From positions 1 through 64,000 of the forward strand of contig NZ_JANZYP010000041.1 of the NCBI RefSeq assembly GCF_025506355.1: a stretch of 64,000 nucleotides of DNA. Direction: 5' to 3'. The notes below the pieces were generated by a model. It saw only the letters and a program-made list of their open reading frames with translations. It had not been told where the DNA came from and searched no databases. Every line of letters begins with the position of its first letter. Positions within the stretch are counted from its first letter, which is position 1. A program made the translations under genes and the position numbers. The DNA comes from Sphaerisporangium corydalis (lineage in GTDB: Bacteria > Actinomycetota > Actinomycetes > Streptosporangiales > Streptosporangiaceae). This document shows positions 3,582 to 61,385 of the stretch, in pieces.

Positions 3582-6500
3582 CTAGGCGTCGAGCAGCCGG
3601 TCGGTCTCGGGAGGATGCCGGGCGGGGGTGAGGGGTTTGGCGTCGAGCAGGCGATCGGCTTCCTGTTGCAGGGCGTCGCGGTCCCAGGTGACGACGGCGC
3701 CGGGGATCGCGTCCGGCAGCACGTCCTCCATGTACCGCAGCGTCCGCCACCGCAGGCCGTACGTGGCCAGCAGGATCTGCGCCACGCCCAGGATCACGAT
3801 CATGAGTGCCATGCCGCGCCCCGGCCCGGTGCCCAGCACGCCGCCGGCGGACCCGCTCAGCCACCCGCCGTCCCGCATCGCCGGCTCGAAGACCGCGTCG
3901 GCGAGCTGCCCGGCGAGCAGGTAGCCCAGCGGTTCGGTCAGATTGGCGATCATCCGGTTGCTCGCGAGGATCCGTCCCTGCAGCTCCATCCCGACCTTCG
4001 TCTGGATCATGGTCTGCCAGTGGCCGTTGAGCAGCGCGAGCGAGGCCGCGATGGCGGCCAGCCCGACGGCCAGGAACAGCGCCGAGGGGATCAGGCCCAC
4101 CACGACCATCCCGGCGCCGGTGAGCAGCGTGAACCCCACCATGCCGGTGGCGCGCCGCGCGAACCCGCCCCAGAGCGCCATGGCCACGCCGCCGATGATC
4201 CCGCCGACGGCGCCGATGGTCGACGCCACGCTCAGGGCGGCGGGTGATGCGAAGGCCAGCACCATCGGCGGGGTGAGCGCGATGGCGAAGCCCAGGATGA
4301 GGTTGAACGCGAGGAAGTACACGATCATCGCGACGAAGCTTGGCCGCCGCGCGATGTACCGCACGCCGTTGCTGATCTCCTTCCAGATCGACTCCTCGCG
4401 CCTGCGGAACAGCGTGTTCGGGAACCGCACCGCGAGCAGGGTGAGCAGCGAGACGACGACCGTCACCAGGTCGACGACCAGCAGGCCGCTGAGGTCGATC
4501 AGCAGGATCAGCGCGCCGCCGAGCAGCGGGCCGCCGGCCTGGCTGAGCGCGACCAGCGCCTGGGTGATGCCGTTGGTCCTGCCGAGGTACCGCTTGGGCA
4601 CCAGTTGCGCGGTGGCGGCGAGGTAGGCGGGTTGCTGGAAGGCGGCGGCGATCGAGGTGAGGCCCGTGGCGATGTACAGGTGCCATACCTCCAGCGATCC
4701 GGCGGCGTACAGCACCAGGCACAGGCCCGAGCCCAGCACGGCCACCAGGTCCCCGACGATCATGACCAGCCGCCGGTTCCAGCGGTCCGCCGCCGCCCCC
4801 GCGAACGGGAGCACCAGCAGGGCGGGCAGCAGGCCGCAGACCAGGATGACCGAGAACTGCGTGGCGCTGCCGGTCTTGAGGTAGACCCAGACGCCGAGGC
4901 CGAACGCCAGCGCCCGGGTGCCCAGCATGGACACCAGCTGTCCCAGGGTGACGAGCAGGAACCCCCACAGCCCGGTGGCGGGCGCCGGCGCCGGCGTGAC
5001 CCGGCTCCTCGCCGGACGTCCGTACACGCCCCCGGAACCGCCGTACGCGCCTGTCTCGGTGGACGCGCCACCGGCCTCGGTGGACGTGACACCCGCCTCG
5101 CCGGAGGTGGCATCTGCCTCGGCGGAGGTGCCTTGGCTCTCGGCGGGCGGGTCGCCGGTCTCGGCCAGCGTGCCGCCGGTCCTGGCGGGCGGGTCGCCGG
5201 TGTCGGTGGACGGTCGGCGGCGGTCGTACCAGCGGGTCAGGATGGTCGCCAGCTCGCCGGCCTGGTGCTTGAGGAAGAAGTGGCCCGCGTCCGGGATCAC
5301 CTCGATCTCGGTCTCCGCGCACAGCATGTCCCACTCGCGGTACCGCTCCTCGTGGAACTCGGTGAGCCGGTCGCGCTCGCCCACCACGCTCAGCGCGTGC
5401 AGCGTGCGCTCGCGGCCGGGCGCGTGGCAGTGGTCGGAGTAGAACTGCTCGGCCTGCCGGGAGTCGTGCCGCAGCGCGCGCAGGACGAACGCCTGCTCCG
5501 CCGGATCCAGCTCCTCGGTGAGGCCGCCGATCCCCCGGAGGGTGTCCCGGTAGAGACGGTCGGACCGCCAGCGGTCGCTCGGCAGGAACCGCGCCCACAG
5601 CTCGAAGATCCGTCCCGGCAGCCGGGGGGCCGGGAACGCGCCGCCGAACACCACCCCGACGACGTCGCCGCCCTCGGCCGAGAGCCGCCGGGCGATGTCG
5701 AAGGCCATCGCCGCGCCGAGGCAGTGCCCGTACACGATCACGGGGCCCTCGACGGACGCGCGGATCTCGGCCACGCAGCGCTCCGCCAGCACGCCGGACG
5801 GCTCCAGCGGCACGTCGGCGTTGCCGAAGTCGTGCCCGGGCAGCTCGACGGCGAACAGCGGGAAGTCGGCGGGCAGCGCCTTGGCGAGCGTCCCGTACGC
5901 CGCGGCGCTCCCACCGCCGAAGGGCACCGCGACCACCGTCGCCGTGACCGTCGCGCCCGGTGCCCGGCCGGGCAGCCGGCACAGCAGCCCGCCCGCCCCC
6001 GCCGCGCCGTCCGCGCCGTCCGCGCCGAGCAGGTCGGCGAGCTCGCGGATCGTCGGGTGCTGGAACACCGCGGCGACCCGCAGGCCGTCGCCGATCCGCC
6101 GGGCCAGCCGCATGGCGGTGAACGAGTCGCCGCCGAGGGCGAAGAAGTCGTCGTCGATGCCGACCTCGGGCAGCCCGAGCACCTCCCGCCAGATCGCGGC
6201 GAGGCGCTCGTCAGCGGCGTCGCGCGGCGGCGTGACCGGCCGGTCGCCCGCGGGGCGCGGGCCGGGTTCCGGCAGCGCCCGCCAGTCGAGCTTGCCGTTC
6301 GGGGTGATCGGGAGCCGGTCCAGCTCGACGAACGCGGCGGGCACCATGTACGGCGGCAGCTTCTCCCGGGCGTAGTCATGCGGCGTCCGCACCTCCGCTG
6401 GTACGTCCGTCGGCACATCAGCCAGTCCGGCCTCGTTCGGCCCGGTCCCGTCCGGCCCGGTCCCATTCGAACCAGCCTCGTTCGGGCCGGCCTCGTTCGG

Positions 6501-9383
6501 CCTGACCGCGTTCGGGCCGGGAACGCAGTACGCCACCAGGCGGGCCCGGCCGTCGCCGTCGTGGCGGACCGCGACGGCGACGTCGGCGATGGCCGGGTGG
6601 CCGCGCAGCACCGCCTCGATGTAACCGGGTTCGACCCGGTACCCCCGGATCTTCGCCTGGCGGTCCAGCCGCCCCAGGAACTCGAAGACCCCGCTGGGCA
6701 GCAGCCGGCCCCGGTCGCCCGAACGGTACGCGCGGGCGGCGGGGTCGTCGGAGAACGGATCGCGGACGAACCCCGTGCCGCGCGGCTCCCCGGCCGACAG
6801 GTAGCCGCGCGCCACGCTCGCCCCGGTGATCAGCAGTTCCCCGGCCGCCCCCACGGGCACCGGCCGCAGGTACCGGTCCACCACGCGCACCTGGACGTTG
6901 GCGATGGCCGAGCCGAGCGGCACGGCCGCGCCGCCGCGGTGCCCGCGCTCGGCGGGTACCGGGTGGGCGAGCACCGCGACGGTCGTCTCCGTCGGCCCGT
7001 AGTTATTCCAGACGGCACATTCCGGGCGGACCTGGTGGACGGCGTCCACCAGGTCCCACGGGCAGGCCTCCCCCGCGAGGATCAGGTGACGCGCGGGGAC
7101 GACCGCGGAGAGCAGGCCCGCGTCCCGGACGGCCTGCAGGTGGCTGGGTACGAGCTTCAGGAAGTCGATCGGGTGCCGGGTGAAGTAGCCGGCGAGCTGG
7201 TCGGGGTCGACCGCCCACTCGTAGGGCAGCACGTGGACGGTGCCGCCGGTGGCCAGCGCCCCGTAGAGGTTGGTCAGCCCGAGGTCGGCGGCGAGTGTGG
7301 AGACCAGCGCGAACGAAAGCCCGTCCGGCACCTCCAGCCGGTCCAGGATCCCGGTGATGTAGTTGGTGAAGTTGCCGTGCTCGACCACCACCCCCTTCGG
7401 GCGTCCCGTCGAGCCCGACGTGAACACCACGTACATGGCCTCGTCCCCGGCGGGCAGGCGGCCGAGGTCCGCCGGGGACCGGCCCGCGAGCTCGGCGCCG
7501 ATCTCGTCCACGTCCACGACGACGACCCCGTCCGGCGCGGGCAGGCCGGCGCGGTCGACCTCGGTGTGGGTCAGCAGCACCGTCGCGCCCGACTCCGCGA
7601 GGACCGCCGCGATGTGGCCCGCAGGTGCCGCCGGGTCGAGCGGGACGTAGGCCGCGCCCGCCTTCTGCGCGGCCAGCATCGCGACGACGTGGTCCACCGA
7701 GCGCTCGAACAGCAGCGCGACCAGGTCGCCGGGCACGGTCCCGCCGGCGACCAGGTGCCCGGCCAGCCGGTTCGCCCGCTCGTTCAGCTCGCCGTACCCG
7801 GCCACGTCGTCCCGGCACCGCACGGCGGGCCGCGCCGGGTTCCGCGCCGCGTGCGTCTCGAAGCGGGCGAGCAGGGACGCGGAGGCGTCGTACTCCGGGA
7901 CGTGCGCCGGTCCCGGCCGCACCGCTTCGGTGTCCGCCGACGGCACCGGGGGCAGCGAGGTCAGGGGGGCGTCGAGGTCGGCGAGCAGGGCTTCGAGCGC
8001 CTCGGTGAGATGCGCGCCGAGCCGTTCCACCATCCCCCTGGACAGCAGCTCGGCCGCGTACGTCAGCGTGCCGCGCAGCTCGTCCCCGGTCTCCACCAGG
8101 GCGCAGGAGAGGTCGAACCTCGCCCGTGCGCCGCCCACCTCCACGGGGGTGACCGACAGGCCGGGCACGCTCTCGGCCAGTTCGGTCGCCGCGTGGTAGT
8201 TGAACATCACCTGGACGAGCCGGTTCGCGCCGAGGTCCCGCTCGGGCGCCAGCTCGGCGACCAGCCGTTCGAACTGCAGGTCCTGATGCTCGTAGGCGTC
8301 CAGAGTGCACTCGCGGACGCGCTGGACCAGGTCGCGGCAGGTGGGCACCGGGCTGAGGTCCAGCCGGAGCACCAGGGTGTTGACGAAGCACCCGAGCAGC
8401 TCCTCCACCTCGGGACGGTCCCGCCCCGCGACCGGGGTGCCCACCACGACGTCCTCGGTGGCGCAGTGCCGGTGCAGCACGTGGCCGAAGGCGGTGAGCA
8501 GCAGTACGAACGGCGTCACCGAGGCCTCCCGCGCCACGGTGCGCAGCCGCCGGACCAGGGCGCCGTCCAGCGTGAAGCGGACCTCGGCCCCGGCGTCGGA
8601 GCGGGTCGCCGGACGCGGCCGGTCCAGCGGGAGCTCCAGGATTGGGGGCAGGTCGGCGAGCTGCTCGCGCCAGTAGCCGAGGTGCCCGCGCAGGTGGTCC
8701 TCGTCCAGGCGCTCCCGCTGCCAGGCGGCGTAGTCGCCGTACTGGACGGGCAGCGGCTCGAACGCCGGGGCGCCGCCGGCGGCCAGCGCGGTGTACGCGT
8801 GGAAGAACTCCCGGACGAGCCGCCGTGACGACCACGCGTCGGTCGCGATGTGGTGCGCGACGAACAGCAGCGCGTGGTCGTCGTCGCCCAGCCGGGCCAG
8901 CGTCACCCGCAGCGGGAACTCCTCGTCCAGCCGGAACGGGGTCTCCGCGAGACGGGCGAAGAGCTCGCTCACGGCCGCGTCCGGCCCGCCGCCGAGGTCC
9001 GCGTACCGGAGGGTCAGCTCGGCGTCGACCTCCGATCGGGTGGCGATGACGAGTTCGGGGTCGGGATCGCCGGCGGCGCATTTGGTGCGCAGCACCTCGT
9101 GGCGGTCCACCACGGCCGAAAGCGCCCCGCGCATGGCCGCGAGGTCCAGCGGCCCCCGCACCCGCAGGGCCTCCACCACGTTGTAGGCGGAGCCGTCCGG
9201 TTCGAGGTTCTGCAGGAAGTAGAGCCGGCGCTGCGCGAACGACATCGGCAGCCGGCCGGTGGACCGGTCGAGCAGCGGGATGGGCGCCGCGGCGACCGGC
9301 CGGGGCGTCGTGAGCCGGGTGAGCCGGGCCCGCTGTTCGGGGGACAGGCGCGACAGCCGGTCGGCCAGCATGGAGTCCATCAC
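3582..9383 (-). CDS. NRPS module C-A-T-TE with fused MFS exporter
   Basis: 1933 residues. Domains in order: condensation (~45-460, active site HHIATD near 177), adenylation (~490-1020, core FTSGSTGRPKG near 654 and the catalytic Lys in ITPNGKLD), thiolation (~1045-1110, GGDS serine near 1085), thioesterase (~1130-1375, GHCLGAA near 1219), a repetitive Thr/Glu/Gly/Pro linker (~1380-1465), and a complete MFS_3/EntS-like transporter (~1468-1890). The adenylation domain carries a repetitive Pro-Asn-Glu-Ala-Gly insertion before LPPYMVP. The start is GTG 9383 or ATG 9380; either overlaps the stop of the upstream A-T gene, so translation is coupled. It should condense two residues and release the product, and the fused MFS domain would export it (inference). 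The substrate amino acids are not assigned. Confidence 0.92.
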   Translation of the reverse strand: MMDSMLADRLSRLSPEQRARLTRLTTPRPVAAAPIPLLDRSTGRLPMSFAQRRLYFLQNLEPDGSAYNVVEALRVRGPLDLAAMRGALSAVVDRHEVLRTKCAAGDPDPELVIATRSEVDAELTLRYADLGGGPDAAVSELFARLAETPFRLDEEFPLRVTLARLGDDDHALLFVAHHIATDAWSSRRLVREFFHAYTALAAGGAPAFEPLPVQYGDYAAWQRERLDEDHLRGHLGYWREQLADLPPILELPLDRPRPATRSDAGAEVRFTLDGALVRRLRTVAREASVTPFVLLLTAFGHVLHRHCATEDVVVGTPVAGRDRPEVEELLGCFVNTLVLRLDLSPVPTCRDLVQRVRECTLDAYEHQDLQFERLVAELAPERDLGANRLVQVMFNYHAATELAESVPGLSVTPVEVGGARARFDLSCALVETGDELRGTLTYAAELLSRGMVERLGAHLTEALEALLADLDAPLTSLPPVPSADTEAVRPGPAHVPEYDASASLLARFETHAARNPARPAVRCRDDVAGYGELNERANRLAGHLVAGGTVPGDLVALLFERSVDHVVAMLAAQKAGAAYVPLDPAAPAGHIAAVLAESGATVLLTHTEVDRAGLPAPDGVVVVDVDEIGAELAGRSPADLGRLPAGDEAMYVVFTSGSTGRPKGVVVEHGNFTNYITGILDRLEVPDGLSFALVSTLAADLGLTNLYGALATGGTVHVLPYEWAVDPDQLAGYFTRHPIDFLKLVPSHLQAVRDAGLLSAVVPARHLILAGEACPWDLVDAVHQVRPECAVWNNYGPTETTVAVLAHPVPAERGHRGGAAVPLGSAIANVQVRVVDRYLRPVPVGAAGELLITGASVARGYLSAGEPRGTGFVRDPFSDDPAARAYRSGDRGRLLPSGVFEFLGRLDRQAKIRGYRVEPGYIEAVLRGHPAIADVAVAVRHDGDGRARLVAYCVPGPNAVRPNEAGPNEAGSNGTGPDGTGPNEAGLADVPTDVPAEVRTPHDYAREKLPPYMVPAAFVELDRLPITPNGKLDWRALPEPGPRPAGDRPVTPPRDAADERLAAIWREVLGLPEVGIDDDFFALGGDSFTAMRLARRIGDGLRVAAVFQHPTIRELADLLGADGADGAAGAGGLLCRLPGRAPGATVTATVVAVPFGGGSAAAYGTLAKALPADFPLFAVELPGHDFGNADVPLEPSGVLAERCVAEIRASVEGPVIVYGHCLGAAMAFDIARRLSAEGGDVVGVVFGGAFPAPRLPGRIFELWARFLPSDRWRSDRLYRDTLRGIGGLTEELDPAEQAFVLRALRHDSRQAEQFYSDHCHAPGRERTLHALSVVGERDRLTEFHEERYREWDMLCAETEIEVIPDAGHFFLKHQAGELATILTRWYDRRRPSTDTGDPPARTGGTLAETGDPPAESQGTSAEADATSGEAGVTSTEAGGASTETGAYGGSGGVYGRPARSRVTPAPAPATGLWGFLLVTLGQLVSMLGTRALAFGLGVWVYLKTGSATQFSVILVCGLLPALLVLPFAGAAADRWNRRLVMIVGDLVAVLGSGLCLVLYAAGSLEVWHLYIATGLTSIAAAFQQPAYLAATAQLVPKRYLGRTNGITQALVALSQAGGPLLGGALILLIDLSGLLVVDLVTVVVSLLTLLAVRFPNTLFRRREESIWKEISNGVRYIARRPSFVAMIVYFLAFNLILGFAIALTPPMVLAFASPAALSVASTIGAVGGIIGGVAMALWGGFARRATGMVGFTLLTGAGMVVVGLIPSALFLAVGLAAIAASLALLNGHWQTMIQTKVGMELQGRILASNRMIANLTEPLGYLLAGQLADAVFEPAMRDGGWLSGSAGGVLGTGPGRGMALMIVILGVAQILLATYGLRWRTLRYMEDVLPDAIPGAVVTWDRDALQQEADRLLDAKPLTPARHPPETDRLLDA

Positions 9384-11254
9384 GCGGGCCCTTCGCCGTA
9401 GCCGTCAGAGGCGGCGCCGAAGCCCGCCTCCACGCGGTCCAGCATGGCCAGCAGCTCCTCGGCGTCCATGGCCAGGAACCGCTGGTCGGCGATCTCCCGC
9501 GCGATGGCGGCGACGCTCGCCCCCGCGAAGATGTCACGCACCGACAGCGCGACACCGAGGTCGCGGCGGATCCGGGAGGCGAGCCGCATCGCCGAGATCG
9601 AGTCGCCGCCGAGCGCGAAGAAGTCGTCGTTCGCCGAGACCGTCCGGATCCCGAACAGCTCGGTGTACCTGTCGGCCAGCCAGCACTCGATCTCGCCGGC
9701 CGGGGCGGAGAACGGCCTCCCGAGGACCCTTTCCCGGCCGATGACGCTCAGCGCGACCCGGTCGACCTTCCCGTTGGGCAGCGATGGAAGGGCCTCCAGC
9801 TCGACGAACGCCGTGGGGATCATGGCGGGCGGCATCGTCGCCGTCAGCCGGCCCCGCAGGTCGACGAGATCGAGCGCGGACCCCTCGGCCGGCACCACGT
9901 ACGCCGTCAGCCGGGGGCCGTTCACCTGCTCGGCGGTCACGAAGACGTCCGCGACGAAGCCCACGGCGCGGATCGCGGCGGCGACCTCCGCCGGGTGGAT
10001 CCGCACGCCGTTGACCTTCAGCTCGTCGTCGGCCCGGCCGGAGACGACGAGCTCCCCGCCCCGGTCCACCCGTCCGAGGTCGCCGGTGCGGTAGGCGGTC
10101 ACGCCGTCGCCGAGGTCGGCGAACCGCGCCGCCGTCTCCTCGGGCATGCCCACGTAGCCGTGCCCGGAGTACCGGCTCACCAGGACCACCTCGCCCTCGA
10201 CCGGCGGCAGGCACAACGCCGCCCTGACGAGGTCGGCGTCGAACGGCTCGCCCGGCTCGACCAGGCAGTACCGGGTGTCGGGCAGCGGGCGGCCCGCCGG
10301 GAGGATCCCGGCGTGGCTCTCCACGCGCTCCAGCCGCTTGTAGATCTTGGGCAGCGCGGTCTCGGTCGTCCCGTAGAAGTTGGCCCGCACCCGCGTCCCC
10401 GGGAACGTGGCGTGCCACTCGTCCAGCAGGCCGGCGGTCAGCGGCTCACCGGCGAAGAACACCTTGCGCATCGACTCGCACCGGTTCAGCCCGTGCCGCG
10501 ACCAGCTCCGCGCCACCGACGGCACCACGTTGACGACGCTGACGCGGGCACGGTCGAGCCAGGCCACGGTGGCCTCGGGCGAGTCGGCCTCGTGCTCGTC
10601 CGGGATCACCAGGGTGGCCCCCGCCCACAACGGCAGGAACACGTCACGGACCACCACGTCGAAGCTCAGCGCGGTCAGGAAAGCGACCCGGTCGCCGGCG
10701 TCGACGCCGAACTCGGCGCACTGCCATTCGAGGAAGGACCGCAGCGCGGCGGCGGAGCCGAGCACCGGCTTCGGCATCCCGGTGGACCCGGACGTGAAGA
10801 ACACATACGCCCCGTCCCCGCCGTCATCCCCGTCGCCGGAACCGGCCGTGGCCCCGGCCTCCTCGGCGCCCGGGGCGGCGGGCGCGCCGGGTCCCCGTCC
10901 CGGTGCTCCCTCCCCGATCAGGCCGAGCAGGGTCTCCCTGCGCCGGGCGGGCAGGCCGGGGTCGACGGGGACGGGCGTGCCGCCGAGCGCCAGCAGCGCC
11001 AGGAAGTCCACGACGAACTCCACCGACCTGCGGTGCTCCACGGGCACGAGCGCGCCGGGCGCCACCGAGGAGGACAGCGCCTCCGACCGCTCGTCCAGCA
11101 TCCGGCCGAGGGCCGCGTAGTCGATCGACCGCGTCCCCTGTTCGATGGCGATCCGCGATGGCGTGGTCACGGCGTGCAGGTGGACCCGTTCGATGATCCG
11201 TCGCTTCTCGGCCGAGGCCGGAAGCCGCCTCTGGACAACGTTGTGCTCCGTCAC
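9380..11254 (-). CDS. NRPS loading module A-T
   Basis: 624 residues starting at GTG 11254, four bases after an AGGAG site. The adenylation domain (~20-510) shows YVFFTSGSTGMPKP near 145, the FDVVVRDVF specificity region, NFYGTTET, YRTGDLGR and the catalytic Lys in LPNGKVD. The thiolation domain (~535-600) has FFALGGDS. There is no condensation domain, so this is a loading/initiation module for the C-A-T-TE-MFS protein immediately downstream, with which it overlaps by 1-4 bp. No MbtH-like gene is seen nearby. The A3 motif has PKP where PKG is usual. The expected product is a dipeptide or a compound derived from one (inference). Confidence 0.9.
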   Translation of the reverse strand: MTEHNVVQRRLPASAEKRRIIERVHLHAVTTPSRIAIEQGTRSIDYAALGRMLDERSEALSSSVAPGALVPVEHRRSVEFVVDFLALLALGGTPVPVDPGLPARRRETLLGLIGEGAPGRGPGAPAAPGAEEAGATAGSGDGDDGGDGAYVFFTSGSTGMPKPVLGSAAALRSFLEWQCAEFGVDAGDRVAFLTALSFDVVVRDVFLPLWAGATLVIPDEHEADSPEATVAWLDRARVSVVNVVPSVARSWSRHGLNRCESMRKVFFAGEPLTAGLLDEWHATFPGTRVRANFYGTTETALPKIYKRLERVESHAGILPAGRPLPDTRYCLVEPGEPFDADLVRAALCLPPVEGEVVLVSRYSGHGYVGMPEETAARFADLGDGVTAYRTGDLGRVDRGGELVVSGRADDELKVNGVRIHPAEVAAAIRAVGFVADVFVTAEQVNGPRLTAYVVPAEGSALDLVDLRGRLTATMPPAMIPTAFVELEALPSLPNGKVDRVALSVIGRERVLGRPFSAPAGEIECWLADRYTELFGIRTVSANDDFFALGGDSISAMRLASRIRRDLGVALSVRDIFAGASVAAIAREIADQRFLAMDAEELLAMLDRVEAGFGAASDGYGEGPA

Positions 11255-24775: not shown

Positions 24776-24955
24776 ACAGCCCGGCCTGGGGACGCCGGAT
24801 GCCATGGGTTCGCCGGCGGTTCTCCGGACGAGCCGCCGATCACTCCGCCGAGGGGCCGACCGTGTTCCGGCGTCCCGGTGAACCGCGGTGGGGACCACCG
24901 CCCGCGCTCCATGAGCGGCGGGACCCGCCCCGTGCCGTCCGAACGAGGGGGCCAT

Positions 24956-25078
24956 ATGAGCCTTGACCATACACATCAGGTGAAAACAAAGCGCTTGTTC
25001 GCGGCGCCCGGCGCGCACGGCGACGTGCGCCCGACCGGCCGCCGGCTCGCGGAGCCCGTCGTGACGGCGAAGCGCTGA
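24956..25078 (+). CDS. small ORF (40 residues) heading the SAT/ATP-grasp operon
   Basis: Begins MSLDHTHQVKTKRLF and ends PVVTAKR. A GAGGGGG ribosome-binding site lies five bases before ATG 24956. The last 29 codons before the stop (24989-25075) all end in G or C, a strong coding signal, while the first ten codons are much more AT-ending. The stop overlaps the next start as TGATG at 25076-25080, coupling it to the acetyltransferase/ATP-grasp gene. I recognise no family. It is basic (several Lys, Arg and His), without Cys. It could be a precursor or scaffold peptide for the ligases, a small subunit, or a regulatory leader ORF; the data do not decide. Confidence 0.55.
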   Translation: MSLDHTHQVKTKRLFAAPGAHGDVRPTGRRLAEPVVTAKR

Positions 25079-27294
25079 TGCCGGGCGGAGAACGGCAGCC
25101 GGGGCTGCTGCCCATCCTGGCCGAGGACCTGCGGACGATCGTCGAGCGGGATCCGTCCGTGCGCACCCGGTCGGAGGCGTTGCTGCACCCGGCGCTCCCC
25201 GCGGTGTGGATGCACCGCGTCGCCCACCCGCTGTACCGGCGCGGCCGCCGGCTCCTGGCCAAGGCGCTGATGCTCCTCGCGCGCGGGGTCACCGGGGTGG
25301 AGATCCACCCAGGCGCGGTGCTCGGGCGCAGGGTGTTCGTCGACCACGGCGCGGCCGTGGTGGTCGGGGAGACCGCCGTCGTCGGCGACGACGTGACCAT
25401 CTACCACCAGGTGACCCTCGGCGCGGTCGGCTGGTGGCGCGACAACCGGCGCGCCGACGGGGAACGGCGGCACCCGGTGATCGGCGCCCGCGTGGTGCTG
25501 GGCGTCGGCGCGTCCGTCCTCGGGCCGGTGCACGTGGGGGACGACGCCATCGTCGGGGCCGGGACGCTCATTCTCGGGGACGTGCCCGCCGGGGCGCGCG
25601 CCCTCGCGCCGCTGGGCGCCGTGTCACCACGCAAGACCACCCTGTCCGACACCGACCCGGTGCCCGGCGCGGAGTCGCCCTCCGGCGCCGACCCGGTCCG
25701 CGGCGCCGATCTTGTTTCGAGCGCCGAGCCGCTTCCCATCGCCGACCCGGTCCGCGGCGCCGACCAGGTCCCGGGCGCCGAGCCGCCGGCCGTCGTGCCG
25801 GAGCCGGCAGGTCGTGGTGGCACCGCCGGGCCACGGATACCCCTGGGCCCGCTGGCCCCCCTCGCCATCCCCGCTCCGTGGGAGGCGCCCCTGGCCGGTC
25901 TGACGCGGTCCCGGCCGCAGGGGCCGGAGAGCGGCGGTGATCGGCCGCCCGCCCGATCCTCCCAGTCCCGACCAACCGACGAAAGGAATGGATCGATGAA
26001 TCCGGACAGCACGGTCCTGATAGTCGGTGCCACCGATGAGACCGTACGCAAGGCCAAGGAACTCGGCCTGACCATCCTTCTCCTCCAGCACCCCTCCAAG
26101 GTCAACGCCGAGCAGGAGGAGCTCGCCGACATCCTCCACGTCGTGGACTACACCGACTGGGCGGCCGTCGAGCCCATCGCCAGGCAACTGCGGGTGGAGC
26201 CGGGGTTCCGTGTCGCGGTCTCCATCACCGAGCCCGGCCTGGAGAACGCGGGGCGGATCAACGACCTGTTCGGGCTGGAGGGCACCGGCTACCAGGTCAC
26301 CCGGCTGCTCCGCGACAAGCTGGCCATGCGCCGGTACCTGGCCGAGCGCGACCCGTCGGCGGTGGCCGCCGCGCCGCTGCTGCTGCGCGAGGACCTGGAC
26401 TCCTTCGGAGCCCTCCACGGCTACCCGTTCATCGTCAAGCCCACCGACGCGACCGCCAGCATCGGCGTCTTCCGTGTCGACGGGCCCGAGGACGCCGCCG
26501 AGGTCTGGGCCACGGTCGAGGGCCTGCGCGGCACAAGGACCGACCGGATCTCCACGATGTACCTCCTGCAGGACTTCCTCATCGAGGAGTACGTCGAGGG
26601 GCCGGAGTACAGCGTCGAGGCGTTCAGCTTCGCCGGCCGCCACGTCGTCGTGGCGGTCACCGAGAAGTTCGTGCACGCCGACCGCTTCGCCGAGCTGGGT
26701 CACGCCCTGCCCGCCCGCCTGGAGGAAGGGGTGCGGGACCAGATCCGCGCGCGCGTGGCCAGTTTCCTGGACCTGATCGGGCTCAGGGACGGCGTCACCC
26801 ACACCGAGCTGCGCATCGGCCCGCGCGGCCCGATGATCATCGAGAGCCACAACCGCATCGCCGGCGACGCGATCCCGGAGCTGGTGCGGGGCGCGTACGG
26901 CATCGACATGACCGAGTACGCGCTGGGCTGGCCGTTCGGGCTGGTCCCCGAGCTGCCCGACCGGCCCAAGGCGCACGCAGGGGCCAGCGTGCGGTTCCTG
27001 GTCAGCGAGGCCGGCCGGGTCGAGTCGGTCGAGGGCGGACCCGACGCCGCGGCGCAGGACGGCGTGCTGGACGTGCGCATCACCGCCAAACCAGGGGATC
27101 GCGTGCACTCGTTACGCGACAACTGGGACCGCCTCGGCCTGGTGGCGGTGACCGGCGCGGACACGACCGCGGCGATCCGCCGCGGCGCGGAGGTCATCGA
27201 GGACAACATCCGGATCCGGGTGACGGGCGCCGACGGGCGCACCTGGCTCGCCCGCGTCGCCGAGACCGGAACGCCGGCGGGGGTGCGGGCATGA
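25078..27294 (+). CDS. serine O-acetyltransferase fused to ATP-grasp ligase
   Basis: 738 residues. Residues 1-190 are a short CysE/EpsC-like acyltransferase: a left-handed beta-helix with GVEIHPGAVLG, FVDHGAAVVVGETAVVGDDVTIYH (active-site His) and VIGARVVLGVGASVLG. Residues 190-305 are a repetitive linker (GADPVRGAD, AEPLPIADPVRGADQ). Residues 307-730 are an ATP-grasp carboxylate-amine ligase: KPTDATASIGVFRV, IEEYVEGPEYSVEAFSF, HTELRIGPRGPMIIESHNRI. No stop separates the parts, but ATG 25996 has AAAGGA eight bases upstream and would yield a free ATP-grasp. The enzyme would make O-acetylserine and activate a carboxylate for amide bond formation (inference). The C-terminal Ile tail that free SATs use to dock cysteine synthase is absent. 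Confidence 0.85.
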   Translation: MPGGERQPGLLPILAEDLRTIVERDPSVRTRSEALLHPALPAVWMHRVAHPLYRRGRRLLAKALMLLARGVTGVEIHPGAVLGRRVFVDHGAAVVVGETAVVGDDVTIYHQVTLGAVGWWRDNRRADGERRHPVIGARVVLGVGASVLGPVHVGDDAIVGAGTLILGDVPAGARALAPLGAVSPRKTTLSDTDPVPGAESPSGADPVRGADLVSSAEPLPIADPVRGADQVPGAEPPAVVPEPAGRGGTAGPRIPLGPLAPLAIPAPWEAPLAGLTRSRPQGPESGGDRPPARSSQSRPTDERNGSMNPDSTVLIVGATDETVRKAKELGLTILLLQHPSKVNAEQEELADILHVVDYTDWAAVEPIARQLRVEPGFRVAVSITEPGLENAGRINDLFGLEGTGYQVTRLLRDKLAMRRYLAERDPSAVAAAPLLLREDLDSFGALHGYPFIVKPTDATASIGVFRVDGPEDAAEVWATVEGLRGTRTDRISTMYLLQDFLIEEYVEGPEYSVEAFSFAGRHVVVAVTEKFVHADRFAELGHALPARLEEGVRDQIRARVASFLDLIGLRDGVTHTELRIGPRGPMIIESHNRIAGDAIPELVRGAYGIDMTEYALGWPFGLVPELPDRPKAHAGASVRFLVSEAGRVESVEGGPDAAAQDGVLDVRITAKPGDRVHSLRDNWDRLGLVAVTGADTTAAIRRGAEVIEDNIRIRVTGADGRTWLARVAETGTPAGVRA

Positions 27295-28553
27295 GCGTCC
27301 TGATCGTGCACCGGAGCCCGCTGGAGCCGTTCCCCTACCACCGCTGGCTGCGCGACTACGAGGGCCCGGTGGTGATCCTCGCCGCCCGCGACAGGTTCGA
27401 GCCGTTCGGCGAGCGGATCCCGGTCGGCAACATGGGTTACACCCACCTGGAGACCTTCGACGACGACGACCGGATCGACGAGCGGGTCGTCCAGCTCGCC
27501 GCCGAGTACGGCACCACGCACCTGATCGGGGAGCACGAGGCCGACGTGCTGCGCGTGGCCACCCTGCGCGAGCGGCTCGGGCTGCCCGGCCCCCGGGCCG
27601 ACGACGTGCTGCCGTTCAGGGACAAGGCCCTGATGAAGGAGCACGCCGAGCGGGTCGGCGTGGAGGTCGCGCCGCACACCGTGCCGCAGACCGAGGCGGA
27701 CGTGCTGGCCTTCGCCGGGACCCACGGATTCCCGCTGGTCTTCAAGAACAGGACCAGCTTCAACTCCATCGGCCTGCGCATCCTGCGCGACCAGGACGCG
27801 CTGACGGAGTTCCTCGCCGAGGAGTTCGGCGCGGTCAGGGACGACCTGCTGCTGGAGGCGTACATCCCCGGCCGCATGTGCCACGTCGACGGACTGATGG
27901 TGAACGGGGAGATCGCGCTGGCCTGGCCCTCCCAGTACCAGTACGAGCTCGCGTCGTTCGGCAGCGACCCCGGTTCCCGGGTCGACCTGGCGCTCGACTC
28001 CGACGACCCGCTCACCGACCGCCTGCTGGAGCTGACCGAGAAGACGCTCGCGGGGCTGCGGCTGCCCGGCGGGCACCTGCGCGACCACGCCTTCCACGCG
28101 GAGATCTTCCACACCCCCGACGACCGGCTGGTGCTGTGCGAGATCGCCTGCCGGTCCGGCGGCGGGAAGATCCGCGAGGTGTTCCACACCCTGTTCGGCG
28201 TCAACCTCGCCGAGTCCTCCATCCGGGCCCAGCTCGGCCTGCCGTTGCCCGACGTGGAGCGGGTCGCGCGGTCCGGTGGGCGGCCGAAGCCGGCGCGGAT
28301 GGCCGGTCAGGTGCTGATGATGAAGCGGCCTGGGCTGATCCACTCGCTGCCCGAGGCCCCGCAGGAGCCCTGGGTGGAGCACTTCTGGCTCTTCGCCCAC
28401 ACGGGCCAGGTGGTCCCGCCCGCCTCGGGGTCCGCCGACTTCCTGACCGTCGTCGTCGCCTCCGCGCCCACGCGCGTGGAGTGCGAGCGCCGGCTTCGTT
28501 CCCTCGGCGCGCGGCTGGAGGAGCAGGTCCAGGTCGTGGCGGTCCCGTCGTGA
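27291..28553 (+). CDS. ATP-grasp ligase
   Basis: 420 residues, start overlapping the previous stop as ATGA. An N-terminal preATP-grasp region (MSVLIVHRSPLEP; HLIGEHEADVLRVATLRERLGL) is followed by the ATP-binding lobe with LVFKNRTSFNSIGLRIL (Lys near residue 150), LLEAYIPGRMCHVDGLMV and the metal-binding HAEIFHTPDDRLVLCEIACRSGGGKI near residue 285. It is of the ATP-grasp_4/amino-acid ligase type. It probably joins the product of the first ligase, or a substituted alanine, to another amine (inference). The downstream MFS gene overlaps its stop. Confidence 0.85.
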   Translation: MSVLIVHRSPLEPFPYHRWLRDYEGPVVILAARDRFEPFGERIPVGNMGYTHLETFDDDDRIDERVVQLAAEYGTTHLIGEHEADVLRVATLRERLGLPGPRADDVLPFRDKALMKEHAERVGVEVAPHTVPQTEADVLAFAGTHGFPLVFKNRTSFNSIGLRILRDQDALTEFLAEEFGAVRDDLLLEAYIPGRMCHVDGLMVNGEIALAWPSQYQYELASFGSDPGSRVDLALDSDDPLTDRLLELTEKTLAGLRLPGGHLRDHAFHAEIFHTPDDRLVLCEIACRSGGGKIREVFHTLFGVNLAESSIRAQLGLPLPDVERVARSGGRPKPARMAGQVLMMKRPGLIHSLPEAPQEPWVEHFWLFAHTGQVVPPASGSADFLTVVVASAPTRVECERRLRSLGARLEEQVQVVAVPS

Positions 28554-29968
28554 GACGCCTGTCGACACAGACGCGCTACATGGCCGGCATGGTGGTGGAC
28601 GCCACCGGCAGCGGCATGTACCTGCCGTTGTCCCTGCTCTTCTTCCACCACGCCACCGGGCTGCCGCTGGACCGGGTCGGCGTCATCATGAGCGCGGCGG
28701 CGCTGCTCAGCCTGGTCGGCAACCCGATCGCGGGCGTGCTCGTCGACCGCTTCGGCGCGCGGGCCGTCGTCGTGGGCGGCTACCTGGTGCGCGCCGTGGG
28801 CTTCGCGACGTACCCGCTGGTGGACTCGCCGGTCACGATGTTCCTTGCGGTCGCGCTGGTGGCGCTCGGCGACGGGTCCTACCCGCCGTCGATCCAGTCG
28901 TTCGTGGCCGCCATCGCCCAGGGCGCCGACCGGGACAAGCTCCTGGCCGCGCAACGCAGCCTGCGCAACGCCGGCCTCGGCGTGGGCGGCCTGCTCGCGG
29001 GCGCCGCGCTCGGCCTGGGCAGCGACGCCGCCTACACGGGGATCGTCCTGGTCAGCGCGGCGGCGTTCGTCGGCGCCGCGCTGATCCTGCGCAAGATCCC
29101 GGTTCCCCGCGTGGGCGCGCGGGCCGCGACGGCCGCCCCCCGGACGGCCTCGGCCGCCCCGAAGAAGGGGGGGTACCGGCTCGTCCTGCGCGACCGCACG
29201 TTCCTCGTGCTGACCCTGCAGAACGTGCCGAGCGCCTTCGGCTACATGGTGCTGTCGGTGGCGCTGCCCATCTACGTCACCCAGGAGCTGGGCGCCTCCG
29301 CGTCGCTGGTCGGCGTGCTGTACGCGGTCAACACCGTGGGCATCGCGCTGTTGCAGATCCCGGTGACGCGGCGGCTGATCCGGTACCGGCGCACCCGCAC
29401 CGCCGCGTTCGGCGCCTCCATGTTCTCGCTGTCGTTCGTGGCGTTCGCCGTGCTGGCCGGGGTGCCGGTCGAGTCGGTGCAGCTCGTCGGGGTCTTCGCC
29501 GCGACGGGGCTGTTCACGCTGGGGGAGATGCTGCACGGCGCGCCGCTGTCCGCCCTGGTGTCGAGCGCGGCCCCCGAGGAGACGCGCGGCAGGTACATGT
29601 CGGTGTACCAGTTCTCCTGGGCCATTCCGACCGCGCTGGCCCCGGCGGTGCTGACCGCGCTGCTGAGCTGGTCGGTGACCTCGATGTGGCTCCTGCTCGC
29701 GGCGGGTGTCGTCGTCTCGGCCTTCACCCTGCTCCGCCTGGAGCCCCACCTGCCCGTCCAGGCCGTCCACCCGCACGTCCCGGTCACGCCGCCGGTCCGC
29801 GACGAGCAGGTCCGCGACGAGCAGGTCCGCGACGAGCAGGTCCGCGACGAGCAGGTCCGCGACGAGCGGGCCCGTGACGAGCGGGCCCGCGAAGAGGTGG
29901 CCAGGGAAGAGCAGGTCCGCGAGGAGGCGGCCCTGGAGACCGTCGCCTCACGAAGCCGGGAGGGCTGA
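28550..29968 (+). CDS. MFS exporter
   Basis: 472 residues from GTG 28550, overlapping the previous stop as GTGA. Twelve membrane helices are arranged as two halves separated by a charged loop (RVGARAATAAPRTASAAPKKGG, about residues 185-207). The motif-A region reads NPIAGVLVDRFGARAVVVGG near residue 62. The C-terminal tail (~410-472) is hydrophilic, with VRDEQ repeated several times and ending in ARE/VRE variants. As last gene of the ligase operon it most likely exports the product and gives self-resistance. Confidence 0.88.
   Translation: MRRLSTQTRYMAGMVVDATGSGMYLPLSLLFFHHATGLPLDRVGVIMSAAALLSLVGNPIAGVLVDRFGARAVVVGGYLVRAVGFATYPLVDSPVTMFLAVALVALGDGSYPPSIQSFVAAIAQGADRDKLLAAQRSLRNAGLGVGGLLAGAALGLGSDAAYTGIVLVSAAAFVGAALILRKIPVPRVGARAATAAPRTASAAPKKGGYRLVLRDRTFLVLTLQNVPSAFGYMVLSVALPIYVTQELGASASLVGVLYAVNTVGIALLQIPVTRRLIRYRRTRTAAFGASMFSLSFVAFAVLAGVPVESVQLVGVFAATGLFTLGEMLHGAPLSALVSSAAPEETRGRYMSVYQFSWAIPTALAPAVLTALLSWSVTSMWLLLAAGVVVSAFTLLRLEPHLPVQAVHPHVPVTPPVRDEQVRDEQVRDEQVRDEQVRDERARDERAREEVAREEQVREEAALETVASRSREG
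29795..29899 (+). repeat. 15-bp coding repeat in the MFS tail
   Basis: GTCCGCGACGAGCAG is repeated four times exactly (29795-29854), then two or three degenerate copies follow. It encodes VRDEQ units. Copy number changes keep the frame. Confidence 0.8.
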
Positions 29969-29991
29969 ACCCGGACGCGCGCACGGCGCCG

Positions 29992-30028
29992 CGTGGCCCC
30001 CGCGACCTGACCGGTCGTGGGGGCCACG
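29992..30028. terminator. bidirectional terminator between convergent operons
   Basis: CGTGGCCCCC (29992-30001) pairs with GGGGGCCACG (30019-30028); the stem continues with GCGACC/GGTCGT including one G-U, leaving a 5-base loop. It serves both the MFS gene and the PLP gene. Confidence 0.85.
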
Positions 30029-30045
30029 TGGTTCCCGCGCCCGGG

Positions 30046-30984
30046 TCAGGTGGCCGGCCACCAGCTCAGGTAGCGCTCGCCGGTGTCGGGGAAGATCGTC
30101 GCGACCGTCAGCCCCGACAGGTCGTGGCGGCGGCCGAGCTCGACGCAGCCGTACGCGGCCGCTCCCGAGGAGACCCCGACCAGCAGCCCGGTGGTGGCCG
30201 CGATCGTCCGGGTCATGTCGGCCGCGTCGGCGTCGGAGACGGTGACGACGTCGTCGATGATGGTGACGTCGGTGACCGGGCTGATGAAGCCGCCGTTGAG
30301 GCCGGGGATCCGGTGCGGTCCGGGAGGCCCGCCGGACAGCAGGGGGGACCCCTCGGGCTCCACCGCGACGATGCGCAGCCCCGGGTTGCGTTCGCGCAGG
30401 TAGCGGCCCGTCCCGGTCAGGGTGCCGCCGGTCCCGACCCCGCACACCAGCACGTCGACGGCGCCGCCGGTGGCCTCCCAGATCTCCGGCCCGGTGGTCG
30501 AGTAGTGAGCCATGATGTTGGCGGTGTTCTCGTGCTGGCAGGCGTACCAGGATCCGGGGGCGGCGGCGTGCAGCTCCAGGGCCCGGTCGACGCACCCCTG
30601 GAACCCGAGGACGCTCTCGGTGAACTCCACCTGCGCCCCCAGCATGCGCAGGGTCAGCAGGCGTTCCCGCGACGCGTTGTCCGGCATGACGACGACACAC
30701 GGGTAACCCCGGCTGACCGCCAGCGCGGCCAGGGCGATGCCGGTGTTGCCCGAGGTCGACTCGATCACGGTCGCGCCGGGGGTCAGCGCGCCGGACGCCT
30801 CGGCCTCCTCGATCATCCGCAGCGCCACCCGGTCCTTGATGCTCGACAACGGATTCGCCGCCTCCAGCTTGGCGAGCAAATTCGTGGTCGGCGGCAGACC
30901 GTCAAGGACAAGGCGGAGCAATGGGGTGTTGCCGATGAGGTCGTCAATCTTGGTCGCGATGTCGCTGCCGATCAGGGGTAACAT
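30046..30984 (-). CDS. cysteine-synthase-like PLP enzyme (beta-substituted alanine synthase)
   Basis: 312 residues from ATG 30984 with AGAGGAG five bases upstream; an ATG at 31020 lacks a site. Fold-type II PLP family: the PLP lysine is in NPLSSIKDRVA near residue 44, the substrate loop in ESTSGNTGIALAAL near 72, the phosphate loop in GVGTGGTLTGTGRYLRE near 180, and SSGAAAYG near 270. It should replace the acetyl group of O-acetylserine with a nucleophile. Convergent with the acetyltransferase/ATP-grasp operon, it plausibly supplies the modified alanine that the ligases use. It could instead be an ordinary cysteine synthase; the location argues for a specialised role. Confidence 0.85.
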   Translation of the reverse strand: MLPLIGSDIATKIDDLIGNTPLLRLVLDGLPPTTNLLAKLEAANPLSSIKDRVALRMIEEAEASGALTPGATVIESTSGNTGIALAALAVSRGYPCVVVMPDNASRERLLTLRMLGAQVEFTESVLGFQGCVDRALELHAAAPGSWYACQHENTANIMAHYSTTGPEIWEATGGAVDVLVCGVGTGGTLTGTGRYLRERNPGLRIVAVEPEGSPLLSGGPPGPHRIPGLNGGFISPVTDVTIIDDVVTVSDADAADMTRTIAATTGLLVGVSSGAAAYGCVELGRRHDLSGLTVATIFPDTGERYLSWWPAT

Positions 30985-54580: not shown

Positions 54581-57500
54581 TCAGCCACCTGCCGACGGAG
54601 CCGTACGTCCCGGGGCGGCTACCGCCACGGCCGCCTTCGCGTCCAGCTCCCAGCCCTTCGCGTACGCCGCGGCGAACTCCTCCCCGCCCAGCGCGGCCTG
54701 ACCCAGGCGGGTGAGATGACGGACCCGCAGATCGGTGTGGTCATGTGCGCCGCGCAGCCGGGCGGCCGCTCCGAGCAGCATGGCCGACTCGTGCCACCGC
54801 CCGCGCGCCGCGGCGAGCGCGGCCGCGTTCACCGTCACCGGTGACAGGACGGGCAGTTCCCCGGTCGCCAGCGCGGCCGCGTACGCCCCCCGCAGCGCCT
54901 CGTCGGCGCCGGGCAGGTCGCCCAGCGCCAGGCAGAGCTCGGCCCGTGCGCTGCCGACCAGCGTCCGGGCGTGGTCCGCGGGGAACACGGTGCCGCCGAG
55001 CAGACCCCGCTCCGCGTCGTCGAGCAGGTCGCCCGCCCGGTCCAGGTCGCCGAGCCGCACCCGGAAGCCGGCCTCCCGCGTGTCGATCAGGACCAGCATC
55101 TCCGCCGAGCACGCGTGCAGCGCACGCTCCCGGGCGGCGTCGATCATGGCCAGCGCCCGGCCGGTGTCGCCGCGCCGCATGTGCACGTCGATCCAGCGCA
55201 GGTCGCTGTACAGCTGGTCGCCGAGGTTCAGCGGGCCGAACTCACCGGCCAGCGTCCGGGCCTCCCCCAGGTCGGCCAGCGCGCCGTCGAGGTCCTCGTA
55301 CCGCCGCAGCTGGGCGCGCATCGGCAGGAGGGCGGCCTGGCCCCAGCGGTCGCCGGCCTGGCGGAAGCGGGCCAGGGCCGCCTCCACGTGGACACGCATC
55401 CGGTCGAGCGCGCCCGCGTTCTCGGCGATCTCGGCCTGGAACATGTGGGCCAGCCCGGCCAGCCACACGTCGTCGCCGCTGGCCAGGCGCTGGAAGCTCG
55501 TGAGCGCGGCCTCCGGCTCCAGCAGGAAGAGCAGGACCGGGCCGAACACGCGGTGGTGGCCGGGCAACTCCGGATGCGCGAGCAGCCGGCCGGCCAGCTC
55601 ACGCATCTCCGCCCGGTCGTCCGCGGCCTGCCCGGCGGTGATCCCCGACAGGATGTCCGCCCGGTTGAGCAGATAGACGGCTCGGGCGCAGTCGCGTTCG
55701 GGCGTCGGCCCGCCGCCGGGCACCGCCAGGGCCTCGCCCAGCCAGTAGGCGCCGTCGGGCTGGCGGCCCGACATCTGCCAGTACCAGGTCAGGGTCAGGG
55801 CGAGCTCGATCGCGCCGCGGGACTCGTGGGTGGCGCACAGGTGGCGCAGGGTGGCGAGCGTGTTGTCGTACTCGGCGCCGATGGCCTTCATGGCCGTCAA
55901 CTGGCCGGGTCCACGCAGCCGCGGGTCCTCTCGGGCCATCCGCCCGGTGAAATGGGCGGCGGCCAGGTCGCGGGTCGCGCCCAGGTCGCCGGCGCCGGTC
56001 AGGCGGCCGGCGCCGTACTCGCGGATGGTCTCGAGCATGCGGTACCGGCCGGTGCCGGGCACGAGCTGCAGGAGTGACCGGTCGACGAGAGCGGCGAGCA
56101 GTTCGGGGACCTCGGCGGCGGGCACGGTGGTGCCCGCGCAGACGGCGACGGCCGAGGCGGGGGTGACACCGCCGGGCAGGATCGAGATCCGTTCCGCGAC
56201 GGTGCGTTCGTCCTCGGCGAGCAGCTCCCAGCTCCAGGCGATGACCGCGCGCAGGGTGCGGTGCCGGGGTGGTGCGGTGCGGCTGCCGGTGGCGAGCAGC
56301 CGGAACCGGTCGGAGAGCCCGTCGGCCAGCTCGGGCAGTGACAGCGTACGCAACCGGGCGGCCGCGAGCTCAAGGGCCAACGGCAGACCGTCCAGCCCCC
56401 GCACCACGCGCACGACGTCGGGCAGCGTGGTCCCGTCGACGTCGAAACCGGGTCGCACGGCGGCGGCACGCTCGGTGAACAGGCGCACCGAGGCGGCCTC
56501 ACGGACCTGTTCGACGCCGTCGTCCGGGCCGGGCAGCGCGAGCGGGGCCAGCGGTACGAGCGCCTCGCCGTCGACCGCGAGGGGTTCGCGGCTGGTGGCG
56601 AGCACGCGCAGGCCGGGACACCGGGGCAGCAGCGCCGCGACCAGGTGGGCCACGGCGTCGATCAGGTGCTCGCAGTTGTCGATCAGCAGCAGGCTTTCCC
56701 GGCCGCCCAGCTCGCCGACGAGGACGTCCAGCTCGTCACCGTCGACCCGCCTGCGGGCGTCGAGCATCGCGCCTCCTCGCAGCCCGATCCCGGTGAGCAC
56801 GGCCGTGGCGATCTTCGCCGGTTCGGTCACGGACGCGAGGTCGACGAGCCAGGCGCCGTCGCGGTATTCGTGGCGGTGGCGGCGGGCGGCCTCCAGCGCG
56901 AGCCGGGTCTTCCCGGCGCCGCCGGGCCCGAGGACGGTGACCAGACGCCCGGTGGTGAGCCAGGTGGCGATGCGGGTGAGGTCGTCGTCGCGGCCGATGA
57001 AGCTGGTCAGCGGCGCGGGAAGGGTGGTCGGCCGGTCGGGGTCGGTGGCCGTCTGCCGCCCGGTCACGAACTCGGCGCCGCTGCCCTCGACGTTCGCGCC
57101 CATCGGGCTCCTGGCCGGGGCGTCCGATGCCGGCATGGGCTCGCCGGGGCGCAGCATGCGCAGATGGCGTTCCCGCAGGGCGGTGCCCGGGTCGGTGCCG
57201 AGGGCATCGGCCAGGGCCTCGCGGACTCGCTCGTAGACGGCCAGCGCCTCGGCCTGACGCCCCTGCGCGGCGAGCGCGTCCATCAGCAGCGCGGCCGCCC
57301 GCTCGTGGACCGTCTGCTCGGCCAGCAACGCGGTCAGCCGGGCGGCGGCCACCTCGGCCCGCCCCAGCGACAGCTCGGCGTCGGCGAGGTCGGCGACCGC
57401 CTCGATCGACTCCTGTGCCAACCGTGTCGCGACCGTGGGAGCGACCGCGGCGATGGCCGCGGGTTCGGCGCCAGGATGGTCGCCCCACAACGCCACGGCC

Positions 57501-57904: not shown

Positions 57905-58037
57905 CCCCCCATCTTCGCGCGCCCGCCCGCGAGACCCGAAATCAGCGCGGCCGTGTCAGCGCCGTGTGTGCCCCGTGTGAGCCACCCGCCTCAGTCTTCG
58001 CATGCGGCATTCCCACCACGATCGACGGAGACAACAG

Positions 58038-59234: not shown

Positions 59235-59369
59235 GATCAGCCCCGGCCGCGGCCGCCGGCCCACACCGCCGGTCCGTCCTCTCGGCGATACCCTGGCGAA
59301 ATGCGACCCCCGGCTTGTCGGGACCGAGCTCATCAGCGGGGGCGTCCGCGTCAGGCATCGCTCGGGGCC

Positions 59370-59411
59370 GGTCCGACGGGATCGGGTGTCAGGTCCGACG
59401 GGATCGGGTGT
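59370..59411. repeat. two 20-bp direct repeats, 22-bp period
   Basis: GGTCCGACGGGATCGGGTGT occurs at 59370-59389 and again at 59392-59411, identical, two helical turns apart. It lies just upstream of the ECF42 promoter and may bind an activator. Confidence 0.75.
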
Positions 59412-59439
59412 GCCGCGGCGAGAGATTTATCCGGGGCCG

Positions 59440-59466
59440 TGTCGATCGGCGGGCCGCTCGTTCGAC
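59440..59466 (+). promoter_or_regulatory. ECF42-type promoter
   Basis: TGTCGA (59440-59445), 17-bp spacer, CGAC (59463-59466). The published ECF42 recognition pattern, as I recall, is TGTCGA with CGA/TC at -10. Located 50 bp before the DGPF start codon, it implies autoregulation by the sigma factor encoded in the same operon. Confidence 0.7.
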
Positions 59467-59515
59467 ATGTGGGTGCGAGGGCCGAGAGGCGGCCCCGCCG
59501 GATGAGGAGGACACG

Positions 59516-61161: not shown

Positions 61162-61385
61162 CGTCCCGGCGCTGCCGTCCCGAATTCGAGCACGCCCCTA
61201 TGCTGCCGACGGCGAGGGAGCACGCAAGCGCCTGAGCCGAAGACCCCAAGAAGCCCGCCCGAGCCGGAGGCGAGGACCATGTGCTCCGCCACCGGATCAG
61301 TCACGCTGGCCGACCCTGGTGATGAGTTGTCGCGCTCGTACCCGTCACACCTATGACGGACACGACGAGGCGGAAGGATGACGTG

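Follow-up and report, generated by a model that had tools for sequence, protein, structure and literature searches.

The stretch of DNA analyzed here (the window; 64,000 nucleotides of the soil bacterium Sphaerisporangium corydalis) lies in contig C99 of a 9.48 Mb genome in 162 contigs. It contains a compact gene set encoding a CysE-like serine O-acetyltransferase (SAT), two ATP-grasp ligases (AG1 and AG2), and a major facilitator superfamily (MFS) transporter, faced on the opposite strand by a gene for a CysK-like pyridoxal phosphate (PLP) enzyme. A sequence-only reading of this DNA had described four plus-strand open reading frames (ORFs) chained by overlaps and facing a cysteine-synthase-like gene, and had proposed that the set makes and exports a β-substituted alanine amide or dipeptide. 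The described arrangement was confirmed: all window frames are intact, the plus-strand junctions read TGATG, ATGA, and GTGA, the minus-strand ORF is CysK-like with a PALP match, and the transporter, a predicted exporter, matches MFS_1 with 129 bits. The features are listed below; NRPS denotes a nonribosomal peptide synthetase, and L043 is a related locus.

24790..25013, plus strand: relic consisting of upstream DNA and the start of a lost NRPS gene, including its ribosome-binding site (DNA alignment to L043)
24956..25078, plus strand: 40-residue ORF, a deletion scar that starts like the L043 NRPS
25078..25650 (end approximate), plus strand: SAT, CysE-like serine O-acetyltransferase part (TIGR01172 residues 15-173; 17-row alignment)
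25683..25785, plus strand: 18-bp tandem repeat, 5.7 copies, in the SAT-AG1 linker
25996..27294, plus strand: AG1, ATP-grasp ligase resembling L-amino-acid ligases, 432 aa when started at its own ATG (ATP-grasp_4, LAL_C2)
27291..28553, plus strand: AG2, second ATP-grasp ligase, 420 aa (weak sequence matches; structure model)
28550..29968, plus strand: MFS transporter, predicted exporter, 472 aa (MFS_1)
30046..30984, minus strand: CysK-like PLP enzyme, 312 aa (PALP, TIGR01136)

The PLP gene has an alternative upstream ATG at 31020, which would give a protein of 324 aa. Because of a 15-bp tandem repeat of 8.9 copies (window 29794-29926), the MFS protein has a tail that is charged and repetitive. 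SAT and AG1 share one open frame (25078-27294, 738 aa), as the sequence-only reading had noted in calling them a fusion, and the SAT frame continues open into AG1 in 12 of the 14 loci read, window included. AG1 nevertheless could start separately, at an in-frame ATG at 25996 that follows the purine-rich GAAAGGAATGGATCG, and this start is conserved in L043-L053. The two genes are separate in the remaining loci: in L044 they occupy different frames, and in L055 SAT is closed by a stop and the PLP gene lies between SAT and AG1. A SAT-AG1 fusion protein is thus possible but not needed, and the fusion was set aside as unproven.

Conservation of the core genes

With AG2 as the query, 297 genomes sampled from the order were searched. 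Matches at an E value of 1e-20 or better were found in 43, and in 15 of these the identity was at least 64% (AG2 of G134 is one gene in two reported pieces, 87% and 79%). PLP, AG1, AG2, and MFS genes occur together in all 15 loci (the window and L043-L056), so the orthologous loci do not show the separation that would have counted against the sequence-only reading. SAT accompanies them in 14, the exception being G204. The closest cluster-bearing relative belongs to the same genus as the window. Because the gene set is kept in other genomes, it is not a chance arrangement. A linked and conserved set fit for making and exporting a β-substituted alanine peptide stands from the earlier proposal, but without the 40-residue ORF and the asserted fusion as parts of it.

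The core was likewise found in Streptomyces, Actinacidiphila, and Amorphoplanes. In L083-L085 no MFS match directly follows AG2. Three Streptomyces plasmids (L040, L041, L042) carry the order AG-AG-SAT-PLP-AG2 beside adenylation genes; two of them (L040, L042) encode a tyrosine 2,3-aminomutase, and L042 also has a gene annotated as an enediyne chromoprotein. A gene for a methyltransferase of ~220 aa (N6_N4_Mtase, PF01555; L044:12635-13303) lies beside the core in 22 relatives' loci, duplicates included; it is absent from the window and from the L043 cluster and may tailor the product. The S. corydalis genome also encodes a second AG2 relative (37%; G000:C97:216377-217549, L061), with an adenylation-domain gene next to it and an MFS gene nearby.

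The deletion ahead of SAT and the module at C108

The space before SAT in L043 is filled by genes for a 1,317-aa NRPS and a 74-aa tautomerase (PF01361, 4-oxalocrotonate type). The 40-residue ORF of the window begins with MSLDHTHQV, against MSLDRTHQV in the L043 NRPS. Window positions 24790-25013 align with L043:6347-6570 at 82% DNA identity, spanning the start of the NRPS gene, and the window from 25063 on aligns with L043 from 10766 on at 87%, just ahead of SAT. The gap between these two long matches is 49 bp in the window and 4,195 bp in L043; a 39-bp piece within it (25017-25055) aligns inside the NRPS gene at 79%. Because both flanks match L043 DNA at these different spacings, the 40-residue ORF is what remained after ~4.2 kb was deleted, with loss of the NRPS and the tautomerase. 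The ribosome-binding site ahead of the ATG reads GAGGGGG in the window and GAGGAGG in L043. As this site is kept and the scar ends in TGATG into SAT, translation may still be coupled.

The sequence-only reading had counted the 40-residue ORF as a member of the cluster. Its position directly ahead of the operon, with a good ribosome-binding site, would suit a precursor peptide serving as substrate of the ATP-grasps, but the junction alignment identifies it as a scar, no matching ORF precedes SAT in the 13 other loci read, and tblastn gave no relative in the loci searched. A conserved precursor peptide, as expected for a ribosomally synthesized and post-translationally modified peptide altered by ATP-grasps, was likewise not found. 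The precursor-peptide explanation was rejected and retains a negligible probability. The case carries a caution: where a small ORF precedes genes for ATP-grasps, it can be the mere trace of a deletion.

Pfam detected adenylation, carrier, and thioesterase domains in the L043 NRPS. In the closest copy in the S. corydalis genome, at contig C108, the C-terminal adenylation subdomain resumes ~400 residues downstream, and the middle stretch reads like the oxidase domain of indigoidine synthetase. All 29 aligned NRPS copies, in-cluster or elsewhere, share the nine code residues DAWQFGLIN, which presumably stand for glutamine. The lost NRPS is classed as being of the indigoidine/minimycin type. The C108 copy is intact and 65% identical, and the tautomerase there is 68% identical; they are followed by genes for Indigoidine_A (PF04227, 363 bits), a HAD hydrolase, a UPRTase, and an EamA protein. 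NRPS, tautomerase, IndA, HAD phosphatase, phosphoribosyltransferase, and transporter genes, the set of an indigoidine/minimycin-type locus, are thus found together at C108. This content fits the indigoidine cluster of S. albus, which is described with IndA- and IndB-like genes, a transporter, a phosphoribosyl transferase, and a 4-oxalocrotonate tautomerase (PMC3992020). An IndA-like gene was found neither among the window proteins scanned nor as a conserved member of the clusters. The component list of the sequence-only reading was incomplete, having missed the indigoidine/minimycin-type NRPS and tautomerase present in relatives' clusters, with homologues elsewhere in the genome.

Among the 297 genomes, 20 encode the tautomerase: every one of the 15 core genomes, plus 5 of the remaining 282 (G085, G130, G202, G282, G283). 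It lies beside NRPS and IndA-like genes in four of these five, and in G283 a PLP gene and two ATP-grasp genes are found near it. Within the window's genus, both core genomes have the tautomerase, against none of eight others sampled. Naive Fisher tests, which ignore kinship, gave p values of 2e-21 (order) and 0.022 (genus). A class-wide sample of 394 genomes contained six with AG2 at an E value of 1e-90 or better, five of them with the tautomerase; the exception, G035, has AG2 at a locus without SAT and PLP. Five further genomes of that sample have the tautomerase and no AG2. Neither NRPS nor tautomerase was found in G035, G105, and G177, which have an AG2 relative of 48% identity at loci without SAT and PLP. 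Outside the order, seven named PLP-bearing loci (L079-L085) were compared, and the tautomerase is present in five of the genomes.

The NRPS is likewise present in all 15 core genomes. It lies in the cluster in seven, together with the tautomerase; the other eight (G000, which is S. corydalis, and G166, G070, G101, G152, G009, G014, and G134) all have a copy elsewhere, adjoining UPRT and IndA-like genes in every case. The in-cluster copy of this NRPS is the sole one in G172 and G083, which makes the link between ring and core directly testable in these genomes. All seven Microbispora loci without an NRPS in place retain NRPS relics ahead of SAT (111-292 aligned bp, 69-74%); in six of them, DNA around the start of the tautomerase gene is left as well, and the remaining one, from M. 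corallina, still has the tautomerase. Counting the window, the NRPS has been lost at least twice, or three times if M. corallina is separate. In a 29-row NRPS tree, two groups are supported, one of the in-cluster copies of L043, L044, L045, L047, and L048, the other of twelve trans copies; the remaining in-cluster copies fall elsewhere. Two NRPS copies elsewhere in the order (G097:C10:28369-32214 and G134:C17:41746-44832) each contain one in-frame TGA.

The core enzymes

SAT scored 166 bits against the CysE equivalog TIGR01172 (cut-off 210.65) and 150.3 bits against EpsC NF041874, above the cut-off of 150. A strong CysE match (E 2e-49) was obtained only in the two cluster-bearing genomes among 11 of the genus, the other nine giving weak hexapeptide matches only (best 1.6e-9). 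This distribution supports the view that SAT is not a housekeeping gene of the genus. The PLP enzyme reached 343 bits against TIGR01136, just below the cut-off of 344.15, 331.4 bits against cysteine synthase A (TIGR01139, cut-off 350.95), and 223.8 bits against the SbnA diaminopropionate enzyme (TIGR03945, cut-off 349.95). Its closest relatives of solved structure are cysteine synthases (down to 3e-87). Compared with the Arabidopsis cysteine synthase, it has MPDNAS for MPASMS, QHEN for QFEN, and GLNGGF for GIGAGF. Among 11 aligned cluster PLP enzymes, QHEN occurs in all 11 and GLNGGF in 10 (L081 has GLTGGF), with Met in none. We take the changed positions to line the nucleophile pocket.

These scores near the cysteine synthase cut-offs would suit ordinary cysteine synthesis by SAT and the PLP enzyme, with the ligases acting in another primary pathway. 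Against this stand the absence of a CysE-type SAT from nine of the 11 genomes, the linkage of the set to ligases and an exporter, and the remaining complement of the genome. It has 19 PALP matches, including a protein over the cysteine-synthase subfamily cut-off (C104), a cystathionine β-synthase (CBS; C80), and an SbnA (C83), and so the PLP enzyme is not the only enzyme of the cysteine synthase type; it is the opposite outcome, together with ligases acting in a known primary pathway, that the sequence-only reading had named as damaging to it. Housekeeping cysteine synthesis was rejected as very improbable on the distribution of SAT and the presence of other cysteine-synthase-type enzymes.

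A relationship of the ligases to L-amino-acid ligases is supported by sequence for AG1, by weaker sequence matches for AG2, and also by fold for AG2. AG1 exceeds the cut-offs of ATP-grasp_4 and LAL_C2 (PF18603, 69.1 bits), and its closest solved relative is BL00235. AG2 scored 26.5 bits against LAL_C2, for which the cut-off is 29.4. Its structure model (mean pLDDT 90.5; 16 rows) gave RizA, BL00235, and BacD as the best fold matches (TMq 0.73-0.77). These ligases, including that of bacilysin, are the nearest known to AG1 and AG2, but the identity in the AG2 fold matches is 16-19%, the BacD equivalog cut-off was not reached, and the partners here are SAT and a PLP enzyme. AG1 scored 24 bits against DdaF (dapdiamide A synthase, NF041595), far from the cut-off of 840.

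Proposed pathway and alternatives

In the interpretation favored here, which comes close to an even call, the set would be the core of a pathway that makes and exports a small peptide containing a heteroaryl-alanine, with the ring supplied in trans in this strain. The NRPS would oxidize and cyclize glutamine and the tautomerase would make the product nucleophilic, as proposed for minimycin. SAT would provide O-acetylserine, from which the CysK-like enzyme would form an aminoacrylate; the ring would add at the β-carbon, through C or N, to give a ring-bearing alanine. AG1 and AG2 would then join this amino acid to one or two others at the expense of ATP, and the MFS protein would export the peptide. 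In S. corydalis the ring would come from the C108 locus. A more specific version is possible but rather doubtful: the CysK-type enzyme would have been turned from cysteine to joining the alanyl unit of O-acetylserine to the indigoidine/minimycin ring, perhaps through a carbon-carbon bond, the two ligases would complete a peptide, and several lineages, S. corydalis among them, would have dispensed with the ring-maker in the cluster because the ring can be had in trans from the pigment/C-nucleoside locus.

Several observations weigh against the ring-alanine pathway. No gene for making the ring remains in the window set, and no SAT was detected in the loci of G204, L039, L080, and L057. Core genes are present in L081 and L083, in whose genomes the tautomerase was found nowhere. 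The co-occurrence p values overstate the case because the genomes are related and their counts are not independent. An oxidase domain of the NRPS was matched neither in Pfam nor among the best 25 of 104 NCBIfam matches. The C108 NRPS is unplaced in the 29-row tree and not grouped with the in-cluster copies. Constraint on the window branch also appears relaxed, as detailed below.

The core genes of L081 and L083 are clustered with asparagine-synthase, PrpF, acyl-CoA-dehydrogenase, and amidohydrolase genes, which perhaps provide another route to a ring or precursor module. Such genes lie beside AG2 relatives at L081:20-6228, L083:15789-20000, and in L058-L060. Loci of this kind, together with the other precursor genes beside the core in Streptomyces plasmids, favor an explanation in which the PLP enzyme makes a different β-substituted alanine with an N, O, or S nucleophile and the ring is a separate block of the same product, ligated later and not at the β-carbon, a link that ATP-grasp ligases can form. 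Within the order, however, no gene that would supply another nucleophile accompanies the core as a conserved neighbor, and the arrangement NRPS-tautomerase-SAT-PLP in L055 fits direct use of the ring. This explanation is unlikely, though it has to be taken seriously.

A further alternative is that the set in this strain is a decaying remnant, the deletion having ended the pathway so that nothing is made. Besides the loss of the NRPS and tautomerase and the expanded repeats in the SAT-AG1 linker and MFS tail, the ratio of nonsynonymous to synonymous substitution rates (dN/dS) is suggestive of it: over 1,757 codons, with L046 as the outgroup, the window branch gave 0.38 (0.29-0.48) and the L043 branch 0.20 (0.14-0.27), indicating relaxed constraint. 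Gene by gene, a clear difference was seen only in AG1 and none in PLP. All frames are intact, by contrast, and few invariant alignment columns are changed in the window (SAT 2/66, AG1 1/148, AG2 1/132, MFS 1/157, PLP 0/119). Microbispora strains without the in-cluster NRPS also keep the core without relaxation, dN/dS being 0.23-0.28 without and 0.26-0.29 with that gene in three comparisons. The ratios and the invariant columns together therefore indicate that the window set stayed under selection along much of its branch, though somewhat relaxed. Its function may have been lost recently; decay with nothing made seems improbable, about on a par with the separate-block explanation.

The ring-alanine pathway combines elements of several known systems. 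In minimycin formation, as reviewed, the NRPS product is proposed to be tautomerized and then joined to a sugar by a carbon-carbon bond, the tautomerized ring being the proposed nucleophile (PMC8724604). The lost NRPS and tautomerase are of the same kind as those of the minimycin (oxazinomycin)/indigoidine pathway, and the nine code residues are those of the copies beside IndA-like genes. The cluster differs in having SAT, a CysK-like enzyme, two ligases, and an exporter instead of an IndA-like gene, and the window locus has lost its NRPS. Dapdiamide and SbnA-type diaminopropionate systems follow a similar logic of a β-substituted alanine and an ATP-grasp ligase, but AG1 and the PLP enzyme fall far below DdaF (24 of 840 bits) and SbnA (223.8 of 349.95 bits), and the SbnA-type protein over the cut-off sits elsewhere, at C83. 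In the D-cycloserine cluster, a CysK-type enzyme, O-ureido-L-serine synthase, uses O-acetylserine. The solved structure of that enzyme (3x43) matches the PLP enzyme at 2e-60, but many cysteine synthases match better (to 3e-87), and the comparison covers the CysK-type enzyme alone. A precedent for the proposed use of O-acetylserine is found in the siderochelin and proferrorosamine clusters, where a dedicated SAT and a RosC-type PLP enzyme are proposed to attach a unit derived from O-acetylserine to a different precursor (PMC11481915). In those systems the ring derives from picolinate and is extended by a polyketide synthase, and the text of that paper mentions no ATP-grasp. No cluster or product of the present make-up was found in the literature searched (titles and abstract starts, with subscription papers thinly covered).

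If the ring-alanine pathway is correct, one glutamine-derived ring would feed two products, a C-nucleoside or pigment via IndA and a ring-amino-acid peptide via the CysK-like enzyme. It would add a class of heteroaryl-alanine peptides and a biocatalyst to make them, and would illustrate clearly how two clusters can share one precursor, redundant copies having been lost repeatedly. With a carbon-carbon bond, the reaction would be the amino-acid counterpart of C-nucleoside formation.

Elsewhere in the window, a separate NRPS locus occupies positions 3582-11254 on the minus strand and encodes a 1,932-aa chain with condensation, adenylation, carrier, thioesterase, and MFS domains. An adenylation-carrier protein adjoins it, and the stretch at 12.1-17.9 kb contains FAD-binding and amine-oxidase genes. 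A tie between these NRPS genes (3.6-11.3 kb) and the core was considered and dropped, the gene orders of relatives giving no sign of it. Near the end of the window (54581-62384) are genes for a 1,107-aa BTAD-domain protein and two sigma-70-type factors.

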